IMG/VR virus record: IMGVR_UViG_3300008050_000323
Span: 1 to 23,545 of that record
From: a virus
DNA: 23,545 nucleotides
Strand: one strand, 5' to 3'
Of the stretch, positions 4,547 through 16,340 are shown piece after piece (the stretch's first letter is position 1; the number at the start of each line of letters is the position of its first letter). A program made the position numbers and the translations under genes. The notes beneath the pieces were generated by a model that was not told the DNA's origin, did no database searches, and saw only the letters and a program-made list of their open reading frames with translations.

Positions 4547-4846
4547 ATGGAACGAAAAGTGACCCCAAAGAAAAAACCACCAGTAAAGAAACCCATGGTT
4601 AAACCACTCCCCTTGGTAGAAGTTATCTGGGTTGATGCCGAGGAACATGGTGATGTCGGGTGGAACTGCCTTGAAGAAATGATGGAAACTGCCAAGTCCG
4701 AACCAAAAGAAATGCGGACTGTTGGTTATGTTTTATTTAGAGGCGATAACCATGTTTCTTTAATTTCAACTGTTGGTGTCGAAGAATGTTCTTCTTTGAA
4801 TAAAATACCGACCGAATTTGTAAGAGAAATCCGGGAGCTGAATTGA
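4547..4846 (+). CDS. Hypothetical protein with Lys/Pro-rich N-terminus, 99 aa
   Basis: The first ATG (4547) has no ribosome binding site; the late promoter immediately upstream would produce a transcript starting at this ATG. A second in-frame ATG at 4595 also lacks a clear site. The first ~22 residues are Lys/Pro-rich (KVTPKKKPPVKKPMVKP), then a compact soluble domain follows: LVEVIWVDAEEHGDVGWN, EEMMETAKSEP and MRTVGYVLFRGDNHVSLIS. The pattern looks like a small alpha/beta domain conserved in phages, but I recognise no family. The gene is followed closely by the zinc-ribbon gene. Confidence 0.7.
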   Translation: MERKVTPKKKPPVKKPMVKPLPLVEVIWVDAEEHGDVGWNCLEEMMETAKSEPKEMRTVGYVLFRGDNHVSLISTVGVEECSSLNKIPTEFVREIRELN

Positions 4847-4847
4847 T

Positions 4848-5141
4848 ATGCCAATTTACGAATATGCATGCACTGAATGTAAAGAAATCTGGGAAGAAAC
4901 TAGAAAAATCAAAGACTGTCTTATTCCAACCAACAAAAAATGCCCCAAATGCGATGCCAAAAGAGGCAGTGTTTATAGACATCTTAGTGTCGCTCCCGCA
5001 TGTGGGATTGAATTTGGACATCGTGGGGTAGGAAAACATAATGTCAGCGGATGGCAGGAAACAGTGGCAAAAATGGTTGATGCGCCGGGTATCAAAGGTA
5101 CATCCGCCGAGAAAAAATTGCGTGATAAGCACTTACACTAA
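4848..5141 (+). CDS. FmdB-type zinc-ribbon protein, 97 aa
   Basis: The N-terminus MPIYEYACTEC is the signature of FmdB-family putative regulatory zinc ribbons. Two CxxC knuckles are present, C8/C11 and C32/C35 (KCPKC), spaced as expected for one zinc ion. The C-terminal half is basic and polar (GVGKHNVSGWQETV, then TSAEKKLRDKHLH). It starts 1 nt after the previous stop, with GGGAG 11 nt upstream. Members of this family are common in phages and are thought to bind nucleic acid or regulate transcription; the partner is unknown here. Confidence 0.8.
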   Translation: MPIYEYACTECKEIWEETRKIKDCLIPTNKKCPKCDAKRGSVYRHLSVAPACGIEFGHRGVGKHNVSGWQETVAKMVDAPGIKGTSAEKKLRDKHLH

Positions 5142-5147: not shown

Positions 5148-5181
5148 ATGTACCTATTTTTTACATCATGACAAGGAGAAC

Positions 5182-6285
5182 ATGAATATGATTGAAAGTG
5201 GCAAGGTTAGTTTTTTAATTGATGCTCAGTGGGGAAGTACCGGCAAGGGAAAACTTGCTGGTTATCTTTATGAAAAAAATCCAAATCTTAAATATGCTAT
5301 TAGTAATAATATGCCCAATGCTGGACATACTTATACAAAAAATGGCAAAGATTTTATTTTTAAAGTTCTCCCCGTTGGTGCTGTGTTTCCGGGTGTGACA
5401 ACTTTACTTGGTCCCCATGCCGCAATCCGGGTCGATTTGTTAGAGTACGAAATGGAAATGGTGAAGAATGAAACTGGTGAATACCCCACGGTTTTTATTC
5501 ATCCTATGGCAACTATTGTAACAACAGAAGACATCACCGAAGAATCTACACTGGTTGATGGAATTGCTTCTACTGGTCAAGGTGGTTGTGCTGCTATGAC
5601 TAAGAAAATCTGGCGACGAGGAGAAGCAAACCTCGCAAAAGATTGCGAAAAAGTTAAACATCTCATCGGCGACACCCATCAAATTCTCAGAGAAGGAATT
5701 AGGTCGGGAGAAGAGGCGGCACTGGCAGAGGGCTCGCAGGGGTTTGATCTCAGCCTCAACTGCGGACACTCCTATCCACACACCACTTCACGCGATTGTT
5801 TGGTTGGTACAATGATTGATAACTGTGGTATTCCTTTAAAAAGCGTCGGTTCTATTATTGCCTGCATGCGAACCCTTCCGATCAGAGTCGGTTCCACCAA
5901 GAATACTAGTGGTCCTTTCTACAGTGACCAAAAAGAACTTAACTGGAAAGAAGTCTCTGAAATGTGTGGTTATGAGGTAGAAGAGAAAACCACTGTCACC
6001 AAGAGAATTCGGCGTGTGTTCACTTTCTCAGAGACACAAACCCGGAAATTCTGCGAGTATATTCGTCCAGATTATGCTTTCCTTAATTTCGTTAATTATT
6101 ATCCTGAGGGAGAAAATAGAGATTCAATGGTTGATTATATTGGGTCTATCCTAAGCGATTATGGTTGTACTCTTCGTCTTCTTGGAACCGGTGCAGAACT
6201 TGAAGATATGCAAGACCTGCATGTTCCCAATGAAAATATAGAACAATTGTTTTTGTGGGAAGGGCAACCGGAGAACGTTCTGTGA
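5182..6285 (+). CDS. purZ: PurZ-like adenylosuccinate synthetase homologue, 367 aa
   Basis: The enzyme belongs to the PurA/PurZ family (IMP or dGMP plus aspartate). In order: QWGSTGKGK (residues 16-24), NAGHT with the catalytic His (H49), ASTGQGG and KIWRRGE (R143-type region), ALAEGSQGF, SYPHTTS, ACMRTLPIRVGS, the aspartate-loop EKTTVTKRIRR, LNFVNYY and a final LLGTGAE. In PurA the first motif is QWGDEGKGK with catalytic Asp; here that Asp is Ser (S19), as in phage PurZ. The guanine-reading TKLD motif of PurA is NFVN, suggesting a non-GTP phosphate donor, also a PurZ trait. Length is shorter than PurA (~430). AAGGAG precedes ATG 5182 by 3 nt and in-frame ATG 5188 by 9 nt. An NMP kinase gene overlaps its end. 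The family is certain; PurZ specificity is inferred. Confidence 0.8.
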   Translation: MNMIESGKVSFLIDAQWGSTGKGKLAGYLYEKNPNLKYAISNNMPNAGHTYTKNGKDFIFKVLPVGAVFPGVTTLLGPHAAIRVDLLEYEMEMVKNETGEYPTVFIHPMATIVTTEDITEESTLVDGIASTGQGGCAAMTKKIWRRGEANLAKDCEKVKHLIGDTHQILREGIRSGEEAALAEGSQGFDLSLNCGHSYPHTTSRDCLVGTMIDNCGIPLKSVGSIIACMRTLPIRVGSTKNTSGPFYSDQKELNWKEVSEMCGYEVEEKTTVTKRIRRVFTFSETQTRKFCEYIRPDYAFLNFVNYYPEGENRDSMVDYIGSILSDYGCTLRLLGTGAELEDMQDLHVPNENIEQLFLWEGQPENVL

Positions 6286-6857
6286 TTCAGCACAGCATTC
6301 TAGGACAAGCAGGATCCGGTAAATCTACCTTTATCAAACAGCAGTTTGGAGAGGATTTTAAATGCATTTACTTCTCCGTGGGGTCGCTTCTTCGAAAGAT
6401 GCTGGACCAGTCGGGCATTGTGGACTCTCAACACAACAAAAACGCGTGGGAGTCCGCAAACCCGCTGGTCTATTCTACATATAAAAATCTTTGCCTTTTG
6501 TCAGAAGACCTGCAAGTCCCTTTAGTTTCTGACGGATTTCCTAGAAATGGCGATCAAGTTATAACAGGAATAAACATTTTAAAAAAACTACCTGCCTCTG
6601 TCCGGGAAATTCAACTTCAACTTCATATGTTAGATATAACAAAAGAAGAGCAGATAAAAAGAATAAGTGATAGACAAGGCATCAGTGAATACCAGATCAA
6701 AAGAATCCACCAGTCAAGACTTGACTATGATAGTGTAATTAGTTTACTTTCGAAAGAAAAAGAAAAACTGGATGATATGAATTGCGGAAGACTAAGCCTT
6801 CAGTTTAACTGGTGGAAACCGGTTGATGGAAAATTTGAACTCGTGAATATCGCCTAA
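6282..6857 (+). CDS. Adenylate-kinase-like nucleoside monophosphate kinase, 191 aa
   Basis: I place the start at GTG 6282, with GGAG 8 nt upstream (6270-6273) and GTGA overlap with the purZ-like stop; the frame is open further upstream to 6255. The P-loop GQAGSGKST is at about residues 8-16. Next come FSVGSLLRKML (NMP-binding helix, like STGDMLR of adenylate kinases), SDGFPRNGDQV (the DGFPR-x-x-Q signature) and RISDRQGISEYQIKRIHQSR, a short LID-type segment with arginines. The role would be phosphorylating a (deoxy)NMP with ATP. Coupling to the purZ-like gene suggests the kinase acts on the related nucleotide, for example dZMP, but this is inference. Confidence 0.8.
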   Translation: MIQHSILGQAGSGKSTFIKQQFGEDFKCIYFSVGSLLRKMLDQSGIVDSQHNKNAWESANPLVYSTYKNLCLLSEDLQVPLVSDGFPRNGDQVITGINILKKLPASVREIQLQLHMLDITKEEQIKRISDRQGISEYQIKRIHQSRLDYDSVISLLSKEKEKLDDMNCGRLSLQFNWWKPVDGKFELVNIA

Positions 6858-6880: not shown

Positions 6881-7417
6881 ATGGCACAGTTTAATTACGA
6901 AATTCCACAAGAATACATGTCTCAGGACTTTGGTTTTACTACAGTTGATGCTGATGAATTTGATAGACAGCATCAAGTGGAAGAAGACATTTCTCGCGAA
7001 GTTGCTGGTGAGGTTTCTTCATCTGTAGCCTCTTCTATATCTCAGGTCGAGTCAAAAATAGATGCAATCCTTCTCAAACTCTCTAGTACAGGGGAGGACC
7101 AATCGATAGATCTGAGAGTAGATTTACAGAGACTTGAGGAAAAAGTGGATAATATTGTATCTATGGAAACTGATGAACTATCAAGGGCGATTCAGGATCA
7201 AAGTGAAGGCATAAGAGCCGTTATTGATGAAGTAGAAGAAAGAAAATCTGTTTTAAATGCCCAATATCAGGAAAAACTAGTTGGTGTGGAAAAACTTGTG
7301 CTACCGCTATTAATTAACCTAACTAAAAATGCGGATCAGGAATATCTTTACTGGCCAGACCGAGCAGCAAATGTGCAAAATCAGATACAAAAGATTTTGG
7401 AATGTACTAGGAGTTAA
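6881..7417 (+). CDS. Conserved marine T4-like coiled-coil protein, 178 aa
   Basis: AAGGAG lies 6 nt before ATG 6881. The N-terminus NYEIPQEYMSQDFGFTTVDADE and the C-terminal EYLYWPDRAANVQNQIQKIL match, from memory, a protein widely shared by marine T4-like phages, where the ends are the conserved parts. The middle (about residues 35-150) is a heptad-like helical coiled coil rich in E, S, D and V (ISQVESKIDAILLKLSST, LQRLEEKVDNIVSM). No membrane segment is present. Late promoter control suggests a role in virion assembly or late functions, but the biochemical role is unknown. The gene is followed directly by the nuclease gene. Confidence 0.75.
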   Translation: MAQFNYEIPQEYMSQDFGFTTVDADEFDRQHQVEEDISREVAGEVSSSVASSISQVESKIDAILLKLSSTGEDQSIDLRVDLQRLEEKVDNIVSMETDELSRAIQDQSEGIRAVIDEVEERKSVLNAQYQEKLVGVEKLVLPLLINLTKNADQEYLYWPDRAANVQNQIQKILECTRS

Positions 7418-7421
7418 TAAT

Positions 7422-8069
7422 ATGAGTGAAATAAGTGATAATATTACATTATGCGATTTAAAATGTATTACAGGAGAAGACTATAGGTATTACATCACAC
7501 CGGATGGAAAAAAATACTATAGCACAACAACCGTCATTAACTGGGATAAACGAGAGTTTTTCAAAGAATGGCGAAAAAACAACCCCAATAAATCAAAAAA
7601 TATTCTGAATCGTGGAACAGCTGTTCACGAAATGGCTGAAGAATATTGTAAAAATGGCATTTGCCCTTCTAGCGAAGACAAAACCATTAATGAAATGTAT
7701 TCTAATCTCACATCGATGATTGACACATTAGATGAAATAGTTGGTGTTGAAATACCACTTTATAGTGATACACTTGAACTTGCTGGAAGAACAGACTGTG
7801 TTGGTATTTTGAATGGCGAACTTTGCATCATTGATTTTAAAACTAGTCAAAAGATTAAACCGGAAAAATGGCTAACCGAATACTGGTGTCAAGCAACTGC
7901 CTATGCCATCATGTGGCAGGAGAGAACGGGGATTCCTGTCCCTAAAATTGCAATTATGATGGTTTCAGAAGATGGAAAGAAAAAATTCTTTACTAGAAAT
8001 AGTATGGAATTTGTTCCTCTTCTTAAAGATAAAATCGATCGATTTAAAGAAGAATCAGGATCGATCTAA
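7422..8069 (+). CDS. PD-(D/E)XK exonuclease, RecB/MGME1-like, 215 aa
   Basis: The start is ATG 7422, with AGGAG 8 nt upstream; an upstream in-frame extension overlaps the previous gene and lacks support. Motifs of the RecB-like PD-(D/E)XK superfamily appear in order: the RGTAVHEMAEEY helix (about residue 66), GRTDCVGILNGE (acidic metal ligand), CIIDFKTSQ (catalytic D-x-K) and the downstream QATAYAIMW helix. Similar small exonucleases occur in T4-like marine phages and probably act in DNA degradation, recombination or replication. Its end overlaps by 15 bp the end of a convergent virion-like gene. Confidence 0.82.
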   Translation: MSEISDNITLCDLKCITGEDYRYYITPDGKKYYSTTTVINWDKREFFKEWRKNNPNKSKNILNRGTAVHEMAEEYCKNGICPSSEDKTINEMYSNLTSMIDTLDEIVGVEIPLYSDTLELAGRTDCVGILNGELCIIDFKTSQKIKPEKWLTEYWCQATAYAIMWQERTGIPVPKIAIMMVSEDGKKKFFTRNSMEFVPLLKDKIDRFKEESGSI

Positions 8070-9996: not shown

Positions 9997-10911
9997 ATGG
10001 GATTTAATGATATGAAGAAAAACTCGGGAATTAACAAATCGCTGCTAGAAGAGCTGAATAAGATTAGCAGCGGAAGCACTAAAAGCTACCAAGATGATCG
10101 ATTTTGGAAGCCAGAACGAGACAAGGCGGACAACGGCTTTGCTGTGGTCCGATTCCTTCCTGCAGTAGACGGGGAAGATGTACCTTTCGTTCGCATTTTC
10201 AACCACGGGTTTAAGAGTGTTGGTGGATGGATGATTGAAAACTGCCCAACCACCATCGGTCTGACCTGCCCAGTCTGCGAAGCAAATAGCAAACTGTGGA
10301 ACAGTGGTGTAGAATCTGATAAAGATATTGCACGAAATCGCAAGCGGAAGTTGCAATATATTGCAAACATCCTCGTAGTGAGCGACCCCAAAAATCCTCA
10401 CAATGAGGGCAAGGTGTTCCTTTATAAGTTTGGGAAAAAGATCTTTGACAAGATTCAGGAAAAAATGCAACCTGAATTTGCAGATGAAGAAGAAGTGAAT
10501 CCATTTGATTTTTGGAAGGGTGCAAATTTCAAAATTAAGATCCGCAAGGTCGGTGGTTTTGTGAATTATGATAAGAGCGAATTTGATTCACCGTCTGCAC
10601 TTGCTGATGGAGATGATGCTGCATTGGAAACAATCTGGAAGCAACAGCACCCACTGCAAGCATTTATTGCTCCGGATCAATTCAAAAGTTATGACGAGCT
10701 GAACACTCGTTTAACTACAGTCCTTGGTCGAGGTGGGGGTGGTTCCCGCGTGGCCCGAACTGCTGAGGAGATGGATGTCTCTTCCGAAAGTAAGACTTCC
10801 ACTACCGGTGTTGAAGCAGCAAGTTCGCCTTCTGTTGCAGATGAAAGCAACAATGCGGAAGAAAGTGAAGATGCACTTTCATATTTTGAGAAACTCGCCG
10901 CTGAGGACTGA
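9997..10911 (+). CDS. 32: gp32 single-stranded DNA-binding protein, 304 aa
   Basis: ATG 9997 has AAGGAG 8 nt upstream. The zinc motif of T4 gp32 is clear: H (in IFNHGFKSV), then 12 residues to C (ENCPTT), 7 residues to C, and CPVC, so H-x12-C-x7-C-x2-C. The basic N-terminus (MGFNDMKKNSGINKS), OB-fold strands (FAVVRFLP, FLYKFGKKIF, FKIKIRKVGG) and an acidic tail (DESNNAEESEDA, then KLAAED) complete the architecture. It coats ssDNA in replication, recombination and repair. It is preceded by gp33 and a strong promoter, and followed by a strong terminator. Codons are relatively C/G-rich, consistent with high expression. Confidence 0.93.
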   Translation: MGFNDMKKNSGINKSLLEELNKISSGSTKSYQDDRFWKPERDKADNGFAVVRFLPAVDGEDVPFVRIFNHGFKSVGGWMIENCPTTIGLTCPVCEANSKLWNSGVESDKDIARNRKRKLQYIANILVVSDPKNPHNEGKVFLYKFGKKIFDKIQEKMQPEFADEEEVNPFDFWKGANFKIKIRKVGGFVNYDKSEFDSPSALADGDDAALETIWKQQHPLQAFIAPDQFKSYDELNTRLTTVLGRGGGGSRVARTAEEMDVSSESKTSTTGVEAASSPSVADESNNAEESEDALSYFEKLAAED

Positions 10912-13453: not shown

Positions 13454-13639
13454 CTAACCCGACTTCTGCTTTTGTTGTGCTGCCATTGCCTCAACATGAT
13501 CTTTTATCATCCCCAACATGATGTGTCTTTCCCACGGAAGCATATTTTCTATTTCCGTCAATGCAATTTTGTGATGAATCATTAATGACATATTAGATGC
13601 AATAAACGCCTGTAAATTATCATGACACATCATCAACCA
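13454..13639 (-). CDS. -1 frameshift extension of the gp26-type protein (gp51-like position)
   Basis: The frame is open in the -1 register immediately after the slippery heptamer, reading WLMMCHDNLQAFIASNMS-L-M-IHHKIALTEIEN and MLPWERHIML. The HHK-x-(S/A)L-x-E-(I/L)ENMLPWER pattern recurs in T4-like tail/baseplate assembly ORFs. No ribosome site of suitable spacing lies before its possible starts (TTG 13636, ATG 13633, ATG 13630). Expression as a fusion with the upstream protein (about 295 aa total) is therefore most likely. The position between hub chaperone and tape measure is that of lambda G-T type frameshift products, and of gene 51 in T4. Confidence 0.7.
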   Translation of the reverse strand, partial: WLMMCHDNLQAFIASNMSLMIHHKIALTEIENMLPWERHIMLGMIKDHVEAMAAQQKQKSG

Positions 13640-14340
13640 AAAAAATTTTCTAACCCTCTAACTCGTACATCGTTTTTGTGACCACACTTTAAACATTTTG
13701 CCTCTATATCTAGTTTTAAATATGGCATCGTAGAAAAAAATTTAACTACCTCTTGAAATTGCGATGATGTAAGACTGTTTACAAATTCTTCTATTTCTTC
13801 CTTGCTGGACTCACTTGCTTTATAAACAGAATCTTTTGTATAAATTTGATCAATGCATTTAACTGCAAGACCTATACCCACACTAACCTCATCTGATGTA
13901 TCTTCTGCAACATCCATATCAGAAATTGATGGATATCTCATAATAACACCAATGTCGTCAGTCAATTGAATTTTGTTATTATGACCTTCTGGTGTTTCAA
14001 CTTTAATATCATCAATATCACACTCTATGGGTATATGTGCATCGCACTTTTCGCATGCTCTTTGTGGTGTTATTACTTCACCAATAGATCTAGATCTAAG
14101 AGTAATCATGACATATTCAATATCAAATGCCGGTAAGTTATTTAAATCAAGACCTTCTGTTTCAATACAATTATTGAGAACGGTCATTAGTGATTCTATC
14201 ATAGAAGCACTATCTTGTGCTTCTATGCCCATGTGAAGAATTTTTTCCTCTTTTACAAGCATTGGTCTATAAGTTATTGTTTGACCCGTTGAGGGAAGTT
14301 TTAACTTATATTTTGGTGTGATTAATTTTGGTATAGACAT
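13633..14340 (-). CDS. 26: gp26-type baseplate hub assembly protein, 235 aa
   Basis: ATG 14340 is preferred: GGAG lies 6 nt upstream and overlaps an earlier in-frame ATG (14352). The family (T4 baseplate hub gp26) shows in MSIPKLITPKYKLKLPSTG-QTITYRPMLVKEEKIL, two CxxC pairs (RACEKCDAHIP and AKCLKCGHK) that look like a zinc ribbon, and the closing GLENFFG. In T4, gp26 aids hub assembly and is not prominent in the mature particle, consistent with a chaperone role. The minus-strand transcript probably starts at a TATAAAAT element at 14366. It ends in the slippery site and overlaps the frameshift ORF. Confidence 0.83.
   Translation of the reverse strand: MSIPKLITPKYKLKLPSTGQTITYRPMLVKEEKILHMGIEAQDSASMIESLMTVLNNCIETEGLDLNNLPAFDIEYVMITLRSRSIGEVITPQRACEKCDAHIPIECDIDDIKVETPEGHNNKIQLTDDIGVIMRYPSISDMDVAEDTSDEVSVGIGLAVKCIDQIYTKDSVYKASESSKEEIEEFVNSLTSSQFQEVVKFFSTMPYLKLDIEAKCLKCGHKNDVRVRGLENFFG
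13639..13645 (-). promoter_or_regulatory. Slippery heptamer U UUU UUU for -1 frameshift
   Basis: On the minus strand the codons AAT TTT TTT GGT TGA place T TTT TTT exactly in X XXY YYZ phase, two codons before the gp26 stop. A -1 slip continues into the 13454-13639 frame. Only a weak hairpin is seen downstream. Confidence 0.65.
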
Positions 14341-14358
14341 AATGTTCTCCATTAAAAA

Positions 14359-14385: not shown

Positions 14386-15219
14386 TTACGGCATAATCCC
14401 CGTAGTTAATGTTAGATCTAATAAACGCCCATTATGGGCATATGCTTCCTTTGTTGCACTTACCATGCCCCCAAAGGCACTGCCAAATCCATCTCCTATA
14501 GACTGCCCCAGAGAAGATAATCCATCAACAGCAGGACCGAATTTATTATTTAGTATACCAAATATAGGATGATCACTGTGAAGACCTTGTAATTCTGTTG
14601 AAAATTCATCTGGTACACCATTAGCAGTAGCCGTTGTTGCATTTAAATCAACGGGTCTATACAGTCTATATGCAAAATCAATTTGTTGCCTAATAACTTC
14701 CGGTGTTTCATTGCTCAACTGAATAGGAGCAACCATTTTTGGATATACTTCTTTAAATACAACCTTGTATCTTGGAAGGTTTTGTTTGTCAAATAATGTT
14801 AATTCAGCATCACAAACACAGTCATTATAATAGCTTAATATTCCTGATCTGGGATGTGACATCTGATCCATCCAACTTTCAAAAATTGTTCTCTCATAGG
14901 CTTCGCGACCAATAATCATGATACAGGTCAAATCACCCTCATACATTTTATTGTATGGTTGATCTGCAGCAACACCCATAGCACCATCTACAATATTTCC
15001 GATGGATCTACCCGGAACCTGAACTGAATCACATGAGAGAGACATTCTATCATAGTATGTTTCTCTAGAATTACCATCGGGCATAGCAACATTGCCGGTG
15101 ATATACATTCCCTTCATTGCTTCATCTGTCATGACTTTACCAAAGGTGATCTTCCAGTTATTTGCAGGAAGATTACCGTATTTTTGGATTCTTGAAACTA
15201 ATTCTGTTACGCCTGGCAT
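14386..15219 (-). CDS. 54: Tail-tube family protein, probably gp54 baseplate tube initiator, 277 aa
   Basis: The tube fold shared by T4 gp19 and gp54 is visible: WKITFGKVMT, then YYDRMSLSCDSVQVPGRS, KMYEGDLTCIMIIG, the IFESWMDQM segment and YRLYRPVDLNAT. At 277 residues it is longer than gp19 (~163 aa), with an extra C-terminal Gly-rich, helical tail (SIGDGFGSAFGGMVS), which fits gp54, the initiator joining baseplate and tube. GGAGG lies 4 nt before the ATG and a late promoter just upstream. gp19 remains an alternative; the order next to gp26 and the divergent gp48 supports gp54. Confidence 0.72.
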   Translation of the reverse strand: MPGVTELVSRIQKYGNLPANNWKITFGKVMTDEAMKGMYITGNVAMPDGNSRETYYDRMSLSCDSVQVPGRSIGNIVDGAMGVAADQPYNKMYEGDLTCIMIIGREAYERTIFESWMDQMSHPRSGILSYYNDCVCDAELTLFDKQNLPRYKVVFKEVYPKMVAPIQLSNETPEVIRQQIDFAYRLYRPVDLNATTATANGVPDEFSTELQGLHSDHPIFGILNNKFGPAVDGLSSLGQSIGDGFGSAFGGMVSATKEAYAHNGRLLDLTLTTGIMP

Positions 15220-15250: not shown

Positions 15251-15907
15251 CTAGTATTTTGATCTTCTTGCGGCATCTTTCCATATTTTTCTTTTATCTC
15301 TTTCTGGTCCTCTCCATTGTGCAATTGGAAGAAAACAAACCACTGGCCATGTTTGTGTTGGAAATTCAATAAGTTTTGCTGATATATTACTGATGATGTA
15401 AGTTCTAACACACCTTCTTAATTTCGTTAAACCCCCTCTTTTAGTATAGTCATATCTGAGATCGAGAGTGTTTAAATCATAGTATTGACCTGCAGCCTCT
15501 TCTACGGCTGCAGCCTCATCACCTATTTCTCCTTCCATCTCTATAAATCTTTTTGATAATCTAAAAAGAGTTATTATTCGCTCTTTTGGGGGTAGATAAT
15601 GCCAGTTAAATGCATGAATTTTGCCGCCAGATACTCTTCTGAAGGGCATAACAAGTGGCCATTGATCCCAATACGGCAAGGTTTTTTTGCCCTTAGGAAC
15701 ATATCTGAATGTATATAATCCACCCCGCTTGGGTCGAATCACTTCTCTTGTCTCTGTCATTTCCCGTATAGTTCGTCTTTGTACAACCTTATAATTAGAC
15801 GTAATATACCTTTTAAACCACCTTAGAGCCATTGGTTTAAAATCATCTGCAAATTTTTCATCTTCGGCTTTTTCTAAAATATCCGCAATGATATTCTTAC
15901 TTGCCAT
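15251..15907 (-). CDS. Conserved T4-like virion or packaging-related protein, 218 aa
   Basis: The gene overlaps the gp4 end by 11 bp and has GGAG about 9 nt before ATG 15907. The basic protein carries RGGLYTFRYVPKGKKTLPYWD, then QWPLVMPFRRVSGGKIHAFNWHYLPP, a motif arrangement I recall from conserved marine T4-like proteins of uncertain role, and a basic, Trp/Arg-rich C-terminus (QWRGPERDKRKIWKDAARR). In T4, gene 2 (DNA-end protector) lies next to gene 4, so a gp2-like role is an option suggested by position. I cannot confirm it from sequence. Confidence 0.6.
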   Translation of the reverse strand: MASKNIIADILEKAEDEKFADDFKPMALRWFKRYITSNYKVVQRRTIREMTETREVIRPKRGGLYTFRYVPKGKKTLPYWDQWPLVMPFRRVSGGKIHAFNWHYLPPKERIITLFRLSKRFIEMEGEIGDEAAAVEEAAGQYYDLNTLDLRYDYTKRGGLTKLRRCVRTYIISNISAKLIEFPTQTWPVVCFLPIAQWRGPERDKRKIWKDAARRSKY

Positions 15908-16340
15908 TTTTGAATAGCTCCTTTTCGGTTAAAACCTTAAATCCCCATCCGCGATTTTCTGCAGTTTCTGTTGCTGCTTTCCATTTAGCCTGATTCACTC
16001 CCCACCGTTTAACTTCTCTCAAATATCTTTGTGTGACTCGATCTTTTTTCTTTGGTGGTACAGATTGTGCTTTTGGTTTGATTTCAATTAAATCTATTTT
16101 TTTGTGTCCATCTTTTGTTTTGTATTCAATAATAAAATCAACAAAATACCTATGATATCGATTGTCTATCGGCGATATATAAGGAATCACTACTTCTTCT
16201 GATCCCCATTTGAGTATCGATTTATTTTCATCACAAAATACCATAAATCTTCTTTCCCATAAAGATCTATAGGTGATTTTTGTTGGATCCCCAACGTATT
16301 TATCAAAATTTTTTGGAGAAAATTTTCCCTTGTACGCCAT
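15897..16340 (-). CDS. 4: gp4 head-completion nuclease-like protein, 147 aa
   Basis: The N-terminus MAYKGKFSPKNFDKYVGDP and KITYRSLWERRFMVF closely follow T4 gp4 (MAYSGKW-PKN-KYRGDPKKITYRSNWE). Further matches are ILKWGSEEVVIPY, RYFVDFIIEYK, DLIEIKPKAQSVPP and WKAATETAENRGWGFKVLTE. The D...E-I-K arrangement is that of TnsA/PD-(D/E)XK nuclease folds. In T4, gp4 completes packaged heads before tail joining. The start at 16340 follows AAGGAT, which would be the 5' end of the transcript from the bidirectional late promoter. Confidence 0.92.
   Translation of the reverse strand: MAYKGKFSPKNFDKYVGDPTKITYRSLWERRFMVFCDENKSILKWGSEEVVIPYISPIDNRYHRYFVDFIIEYKTKDGHKKIDLIEIKPKAQSVPPKKKDRVTQRYLREVKRWGVNQAKWKAATETAENRGWGFKVLTEKELFKNGK

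Follow-up and report, generated by a model that had tools for sequence, protein, structure and literature searches.

Introduction

In Z-DNA, 2-aminoadenine (Z) stands in for one of the four standard bases. A gene at positions 5182–6285 of a viral DNA fragment had been read in an initial annotation as coding for a PurZ-like enzyme in a T4-like setting, which raised the question of whether a phage of the T4 type might make Z and place it in its own DNA. The fragment, referred to here as the window, measures 23,545 bases and was recorded in IMG/VR from an uncultivated T4-like virus of bacteria.

The Z phages described in the literature searched are sipho- or podoviruses whose polymerase is of family A or a PrimPol; their partner genes are MazZ/DatZ or DutZ/DmtZ, and the steps that follow PurZ are left to host enzymes. 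A kinase partner, a family B polymerase or a T4-like setting for Z-DNA genes was not mentioned in the open-licence literature searched, and an earlier description elsewhere is possible.

Gene organization of the window

The features around purZ are collected in Table 1. Ten IMG/VR contigs carry this PurZ beside the same genes, the order being small ORF, zinc ribbon, purZ, kinase, exonuclease and gp32 as far as each contig extends. The stop codon of purZ is overlapped by the start of the kinase gene, as GTGA in the window and as ATGA or a close equivalent at the other T4-like loci. Upstream of the cluster a tRNA-Lys (ttt) gene is located at 1921–1993.

Table 1. Positions of purZ, its neighbours and the T4-type genes in the window
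Feature	Position	Strand	Basis or remark
purZ, succino-2-amino-dAMP synthetase (PurZ), 367 aa	5182..6285	+	ATG start, intact ORF; profiles, PDB match, tree, model
AAGGAG, Shine-Dalgarno-like, 4–9 bases before the purZ ATG	5173..5178	+	Sequence read
Adenylate-kinase-like P-loop kinase, candidate dZMP kinase, 191 aa from GTG at 6282	6282..6857	+	GQAGSGKST, DGFPRNxxQ
GTGA, purZ stop overlapped by kinase start	6282..6285	+	Sequence read
FmdB-like zinc-ribbon protein	4848..5141	+	Directly 5' of purZ in every T4-like locus
Small conserved ORF, same gene run as purZ	4547..4846	+	Conserved among T4-like PurZ loci
178-aa ORF 3' of the kinase gene	6881..7417	+	Kept in some T4-like PurZ loci; not found in L014–L017
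Cas4/RecB-like PD-(D/E)XK exonuclease	7419..8069 (start approximate; ORF opens 7329)	+	Profile matches
gp32-type single-stranded DNA-binding protein, T4-like marker	9997..10911	+	PF08804, 5e-52
T4-type baseplate hub protein	13633..14352	-	Profile match; context
T4-type tail tube protein	14386..15219	-	Profile match; context
T4-type head closure protein	15897..16340	-	Profile match; context

Identity of the purZ product

The window protein was matched by the NCBIfam PurZ model NF038379 with an E value of 2.6e-67 and 227 bits, below the curated cut-off of 300, which is a naming threshold and no biological feature; the best PurA model gave 150 bits. The PurZ family phrog_1211 matched at E 2.4e-63, and the top PDB match was phiVC8 PurZ (E 1.5e-57), followed by S-2L PurZ. 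Judged from the sequence, the match of this open reading frame to PurZ is not due to chance.

Residues were aligned with those of the S-2L and phiVC8 structures. The nucleotide loop reads QWGSTGKGK at residues 16–24, as the initial annotation had stated, and Ser19, equivalent to S-2L Ser23 and phiVC8 Ser14, replaces the Asp of E. coli PurA. Its further motif readings were borne out: the His of NAGHT is kept (N46-A47-G48-H49-T50), as is the aspartate loop (T270–T273 and R277), and the TKLD of PurA is replaced by NFVN, the window reading LNFVNY. Within this stretch Asn302-Phe303-x-Asn305 equals Asn294-Phe295-x-Asn297, by which phiVC8 PurZ recognizes adenine. Also kept are S130, T131, R145, Q186, R235 and V236, while A129 stands for Gly, H200-T201 for Tyr-Cys and A338 for the stacking Pro; mapped on the S-2L residues published in PMC8342488, the dGMP pocket is mostly kept. 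The nucleotide-site residues correspond to the ATP-type site of phiVC8 PurZ. On the cofactor some caution is due: use of ATP/dATP has been demonstrated for S-2L PurZ (PMC8342488), while one sentence of PMC12884076 assigns ATP to PurZ0 and GTP to PurZ.

In a PurA/PurZ tree of 56 sequences, a check proposed in the initial annotation, the window protein grouped with PurZ and not with PurA. The T4-like PurZ proteins formed one clade (100/99), nested in a larger clade (100/100) of PurZ from uncultivated phages that is close to the classical PurZ; PurA (100/98) and PurZ0 (100/95) lay outside. The AlphaFold2 model (pLDDT 89) was nearest in fold to dGMP-bound phiVC8 PurZ (TM 0.80/0.85). Because of the tree, the main specificity residues and this fold match, the product of 5182–6285 is placed in the PurZ class with near certainty.

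The gene could instead be an auxiliary one of the PurA type that boosts host AMP synthesis, with Ser19 incidental, and PurA-like genes do occur in other large phages (Vibrio Va1, Rhizobium TM30 and Mycobacterium ET08). Those genes, however, retain GDEGKG or GDAGKG and are not PurZ, whereas the window protein has the Ser, the adenine-recognition set and the Thr loop of PurZ and lies inside the PurZ clade. On the tree, the residues and the comparison with these true PurA-like genes, the auxiliary-gene reading was rejected as highly improbable. Gp250 of Mycobacterium phage ET08 (NC_013650, L251) is named '2-aminooxy adenylosuccinate synthetase' in RefSeq, yet it retains the PurA-type Asp (GYGDAGKG).

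Between the window and L002 (84% identical), purZ is under strong purifying selection (dN/dS ~0.055, with dN 0.11 and dS ~2.1), and in the same pair its protein rate is slower than that of gp32. Bacterial and archaeal genomes were scanned with a T4-like PurZ profile in search of a host, and no relative was found.

T4-like background and near-complete relatives

The T4-type background proposed for the gene is real. The window holds gp32, as had been claimed, with T4-type tail and head genes, and the family B polymerase (PolB) was seen in relatives and not within the window itself. Three relatives that are near-complete by gene content, G002 (136,012 bases), G004 (136,240 bases) and G005 (126,210 bases), each carry a gp43-type family B polymerase of ~850 aa, which settles for them the polymerase type that the initial annotation had wished to see sought beyond the window. 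The T4-type structural and replication genes of G002 were named mostly by eye from the translated gene list. PurZ proteins of the T4-like relatives other than L002 showed 61–68% identity.

No family A polymerase, and hence none of the DpoZ type, was found in searches of the three genomes. YfbR-type DatZ, MazG and DUF550 were likewise not found in them; S-2L, the positive control (PF12917, PF04447), was positive for YfbR and DUF550 in the same searches. The absence of DatZ, MazZ and DpoZ noted earlier for the window extends genome-wide in near-complete relatives, and the classical Z cluster, with datZ and mazZ beside purZ, was not found. Motifs A, B and C were compared in ~80 PolB sequences for a Z-specific signature, and none separated the PurZ phages from PurZ-less relatives.

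Two genes near polB were considered and rejected as substitutes. The dUTPase gene before polB, tried as a DutZ-type dATP/dGTP hydrolase, scored as an ordinary dUTPase with relatives in other T4-like phages, and for these reasons it was left out of the Z pathway. The small gene adjoining it, likewise before polB (phrog_1485), tried as a replacement for MazZ, gave a negative profile comparison with MazZ and is shared with Methylophilales phage Melnitz and Pelagibacter phage HTVC008M.

A glutamine synthetase-like protein (G002, L104:12583-13644) and an adenosylcobalamin-type ribonucleotide reductase are encoded near the polymerase in PurZ-bearing T4-like genomes. Positions 43964–58691 of G002 hold a large run which by eye resembles nucleotide-sugar and glycosyltransferase genes and is mostly missing from G004 and G005.

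The kinase gene overlapping purZ

The initial annotation, correct as to enzyme class and upheld in each computational check that might have refuted it, had mentioned neither the kinase gene that adjoins and overlaps purZ nor the pathway genes of the relatives. The kinase resembles adenylate and UMP/CMP kinases, the similarity being weak: Pfam ADK gave 25.8 bits, just under its cut-off of 26.8. A P-loop, a DGFPR motif and a predicted kinase fold place it among the nucleoside monophosphate kinases of the adenylate kinase family. The model had a pLDDT of 87 and TM values of about 0.5–0.6 against adenylate kinases, or 0.45–0.6 when UMP/CMP kinases are included, and no close relative of the kinase was found in the phage collection searched.

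A sequence-pattern scan of IMG/VR for the kinase returned 10 contigs, all with PurZ beside it, and a kinase profile was positive in 8 of 31 records, each of the 8 having PurZ. Kinases adjacent to purZ in other lineages are homologous to the window-type kinase (hhalign 99.3%), and in many of these a dUTPase-like gene then follows. Among the PurZ loci fetched from IMG/VR, 33 had the kinase beside purZ, 34 had MazZ and/or DatZ and none had both; the records are fragmentary and not phylogenetically independent, and since the loci share ancestry these counts stand for two types of cluster and not for 67 independent events.

In other phages the kinase beside purZ is fused to a C-terminal dUTPase_2/all-alpha NTP-pyrophosphohydrolase domain (L039 and L040, by Pfam). 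The same fusion was seen by eye in L051, L052, L054, L057 and L070; one suspected in L019 was not supported by the reading frames. A three-gene run of purZ, kinase and dUTPase-like gene was observed in non-T4-like phages (L018, L021, L022, L026, L028, L030, L031 and L033), and those tested had family A polymerases. The dUTPase-like protein of this run could be a DutZ-type enzyme.

The gene context suggests dZMP as the substrate of the kinase. It might also be an ordinary nucleoside monophosphate kinase, or act on something else, its place beside purZ reflecting shared transcription only and host enzymes acting on dZMP as they do in the Z phages already described. The weak resemblance to adenylate and UMP/CMP kinases, which leaves the substrate unfixed, and an evolution faster than that of purZ would agree with such a role; the gene overlap, its occurrence solely together with purZ in phages of very different kinds and the fusions with a nucleotide pyrophosphohydrolase domain argue against it. 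We regard this alternative as somewhat unlikely and favour a dedicated dZMP kinase.

Other purine genes of the relatives

PurB, IMP dehydrogenase (IMPDH) and a DUF4406/nucleoside-deoxyribosyltransferase (NDT)-like protein are encoded in G002, G004 and G005. The PurB proteins matched TIGR00928 at 1.5e-84, below the equivalog cut-off, and have a GSSAMPYKxNP loop; the IMPDH proteins matched PF00478 at 5e-125, with a score under the equivalog cut-off. Adenosine deaminase is present in G002 and G004 (TIGR01430, above cut-off) and was not found in G005, where the contig ends ~1 kb after IMPDH.

PurB, kinase and NDT-like genes were present in 3/3 PurZ-bearing and 0/16 PurZ-less PolB records, the latter mostly fragments with two >110 kb; the samples are small and related, and Fisher values are indicative only. 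One of the relatives that have no PurZ, G029, carries IMPDH as well. In G002 the PurB gene is flanked by a gp47-type and a gp46-type gene, and its place is the same in two T4-like loci, L215 and L224; in L214 a gp47-type gene precedes it and the contig ends inside the run.

Being a fragment of 23.5 kb, the window does not itself show a polymerase, PurB, IMPDH or deaminase gene. One metagenome yielded both L224 and L002, the nearest relative of the window, which suggests that the window lineage has PurB; by comparison with relatives, the window phage itself probably carries the polymerase, PurB and other pathway genes.

The best matches in the phage collection for PurB, IMPDH and adenosine deaminase (e.g. 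MD-2021a, OR84xxxx) include many unverified records resembling host DNA, so that counts of phage carriage there are too high.

Further PurZ lineages

A second, distant lineage combining PurZ (~36% identical) with a family B polymerase was seen in G026 (141,960 bases) and L122–L129; it is without kinase, PurB, IMPDH and MazG. Three jumbo-sized records also carry parts of the gene set: G014 (262 kb) with PurZ, kinase, PurB and an NDT-like protein; G025 (370 kb) with PurZ (QWGSCGKG), IMPDH, deaminase and MazG; and G044 (341 kb) with a very divergent PurZ-like protein, PurB and deaminase.

Comparison with known systems

The PurZ/DgsS of Vibrio phage phiVC8 (PDB 6FM1, 6TNH) shares with the window protein the active-site Ser, the dGMP pocket, Asn-Phe-x-Asn and the fold at 40–42% identity. 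phiVC8 itself is a 39-kb phage with a family A DNA polymerase I and with MazZ-2 and DatZ directly 3' of purZ, whereas the window has a gp32-type T4 background, a kinase gene 3' of purZ and PolB in its relatives. In S-2L (purZ-mazZ-datZ), as here, purZ heads an overlapping pair of nucleotide-enzyme genes, but MazZ/DatZ occupy the place that an adenylate-kinase-like gene has in the window, and S-2L uses PrimPol.

The PurZ0 phage Gordonia Ghobes has PurB-like lyase and dUTPase-like genes in common with the present set, and phage-encoded PurB is therefore not new. The PurZ0 phages (Ghobes, Arthrobacter Wayne) have DutZ and DmtZ, DmtZ belonging like DUF4406 to the NDT family; they differ in that PurZ0 is a separate clade, the polymerase is of family A and no purZ-overlapping kinase is annotated in the stretch read. 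Marine T4-like phages (Melnitz, HTVC008M, cyanomyoviruses) share gp32 (~53% identity), the gp43-type polymerase and structural genes, and among the matches listed no T4-like isolate had window-type PurZ, PurB or adenosine deaminase. Adenylate and UMP/CMP kinases share with the purZ-linked kinase the P-loop kinase fold and the DGFPRxxxQ motif; they differ from it in structure, as the low TM values indicate, and in its exclusive link to purZ.

A proposed route to dZTP

It is probable, in our view, that the locus belongs to a largely phage-encoded dZTP route which PurZ would begin and whose product a T4-type polymerase would copy into DNA. PurZ would join aspartate to dGMP, spending ATP or dATP, to give succino-2-amino-dAMP (dSMP); the PurB-type lyase would release dZMP; the kinase overlapping purZ would make dZDP; and host nucleoside diphosphate kinase would yield dZTP, from which the family B polymerase would place Z opposite T. 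The chemistry of PurZ and PurB is established for the families (PMC8342488, PMC12884076). IMPDH may feed guanine nucleotides, and adenosine deaminase, in the genomes that have it, may drain adenine nucleosides; between them they would tilt the purine pool from adenine to guanine and do the job that MazZ and DatZ have in other Z phages. What the analysis shows directly are the sequences, the order of the genes, their families and their co-occurrence; the substrates, the order of these steps and the presence of Z in virion DNA are what we infer from the genes.

Several observations count against the route: the window is too short to show its own pathway genes, and the PurZ of its relatives, L002 aside, is 61–68% identical; the relatives lack DatZ, MazG and DUF550, which would exclude dATP or supply dGMP, and the small protein before polB does not match MazZ; no PolB motif marks Z; PurB and IMPDH score below equivalog cut-offs; IMPDH occurs in G029; adenosine deaminase was not found in G005; and the dUTPase is of the ordinary kind. 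Because no DatZ-type dATP hydrolase was found, Z in virion DNA may be partial. An outcome that we hold unlikely, if worth bearing in mind, is that PurZ is active and dZTP is made, with Z replacing A only in part, for instance against restriction, and with a polymerase that accepts both. The missing DatZ, MazG and DUF550 genes of the three near-complete relatives and PolB motifs like those of PurZ-less relatives would fit such an outcome. Adenosine deaminase, IMPDH and the NDT-like protein could nevertheless deplete dA in another way, and DmtZ, of the NDT family, removes dAMP (PMC12884076). Complete replacement of A is attained in S-2L by a polymerase lacking specificity for Z (PMC8065100), though with DatZ.

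Z or succinyl-Z might also be made for another end, as a different modified purine or as a free nucleotide against host defence, and be kept out of DNA. The tie between this gene set and DNA comes from comparing sequences, which leaves room for such a use; PurB and a monophosphate kinase, on the other hand, form the expected path to a triphosphate, and PurZ of characterised phages serves DNA (PMC8342488, PMC12884076). We consider a non-DNA use very unlikely and retain the dZTP route.

Taken more broadly, uncultivated phages may hold a second kind of Z cluster, in which purZ and a dedicated dZMP kinase replace MazZ/DatZ. The T4-like members would add PurB, IMPDH and, where it was seen, a deaminase. 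Almost every step to dZTP would then be phage-encoded, and a family B polymerase would write Z-DNA. To this broader proposal we give even weight for and against. That Z clusters fall into a kinase type and a MazZ/DatZ type, each excluding the other, can be tested directly. If the proposal is true, a T4-like lineage brings Z-DNA to the best-understood phage replication machine, and a family B polymerase would be shown able to write it. PurB and the dZMP kinase would then be candidate enzymes for host-independent dZTP, useful for making Z-DNA in the laboratory.
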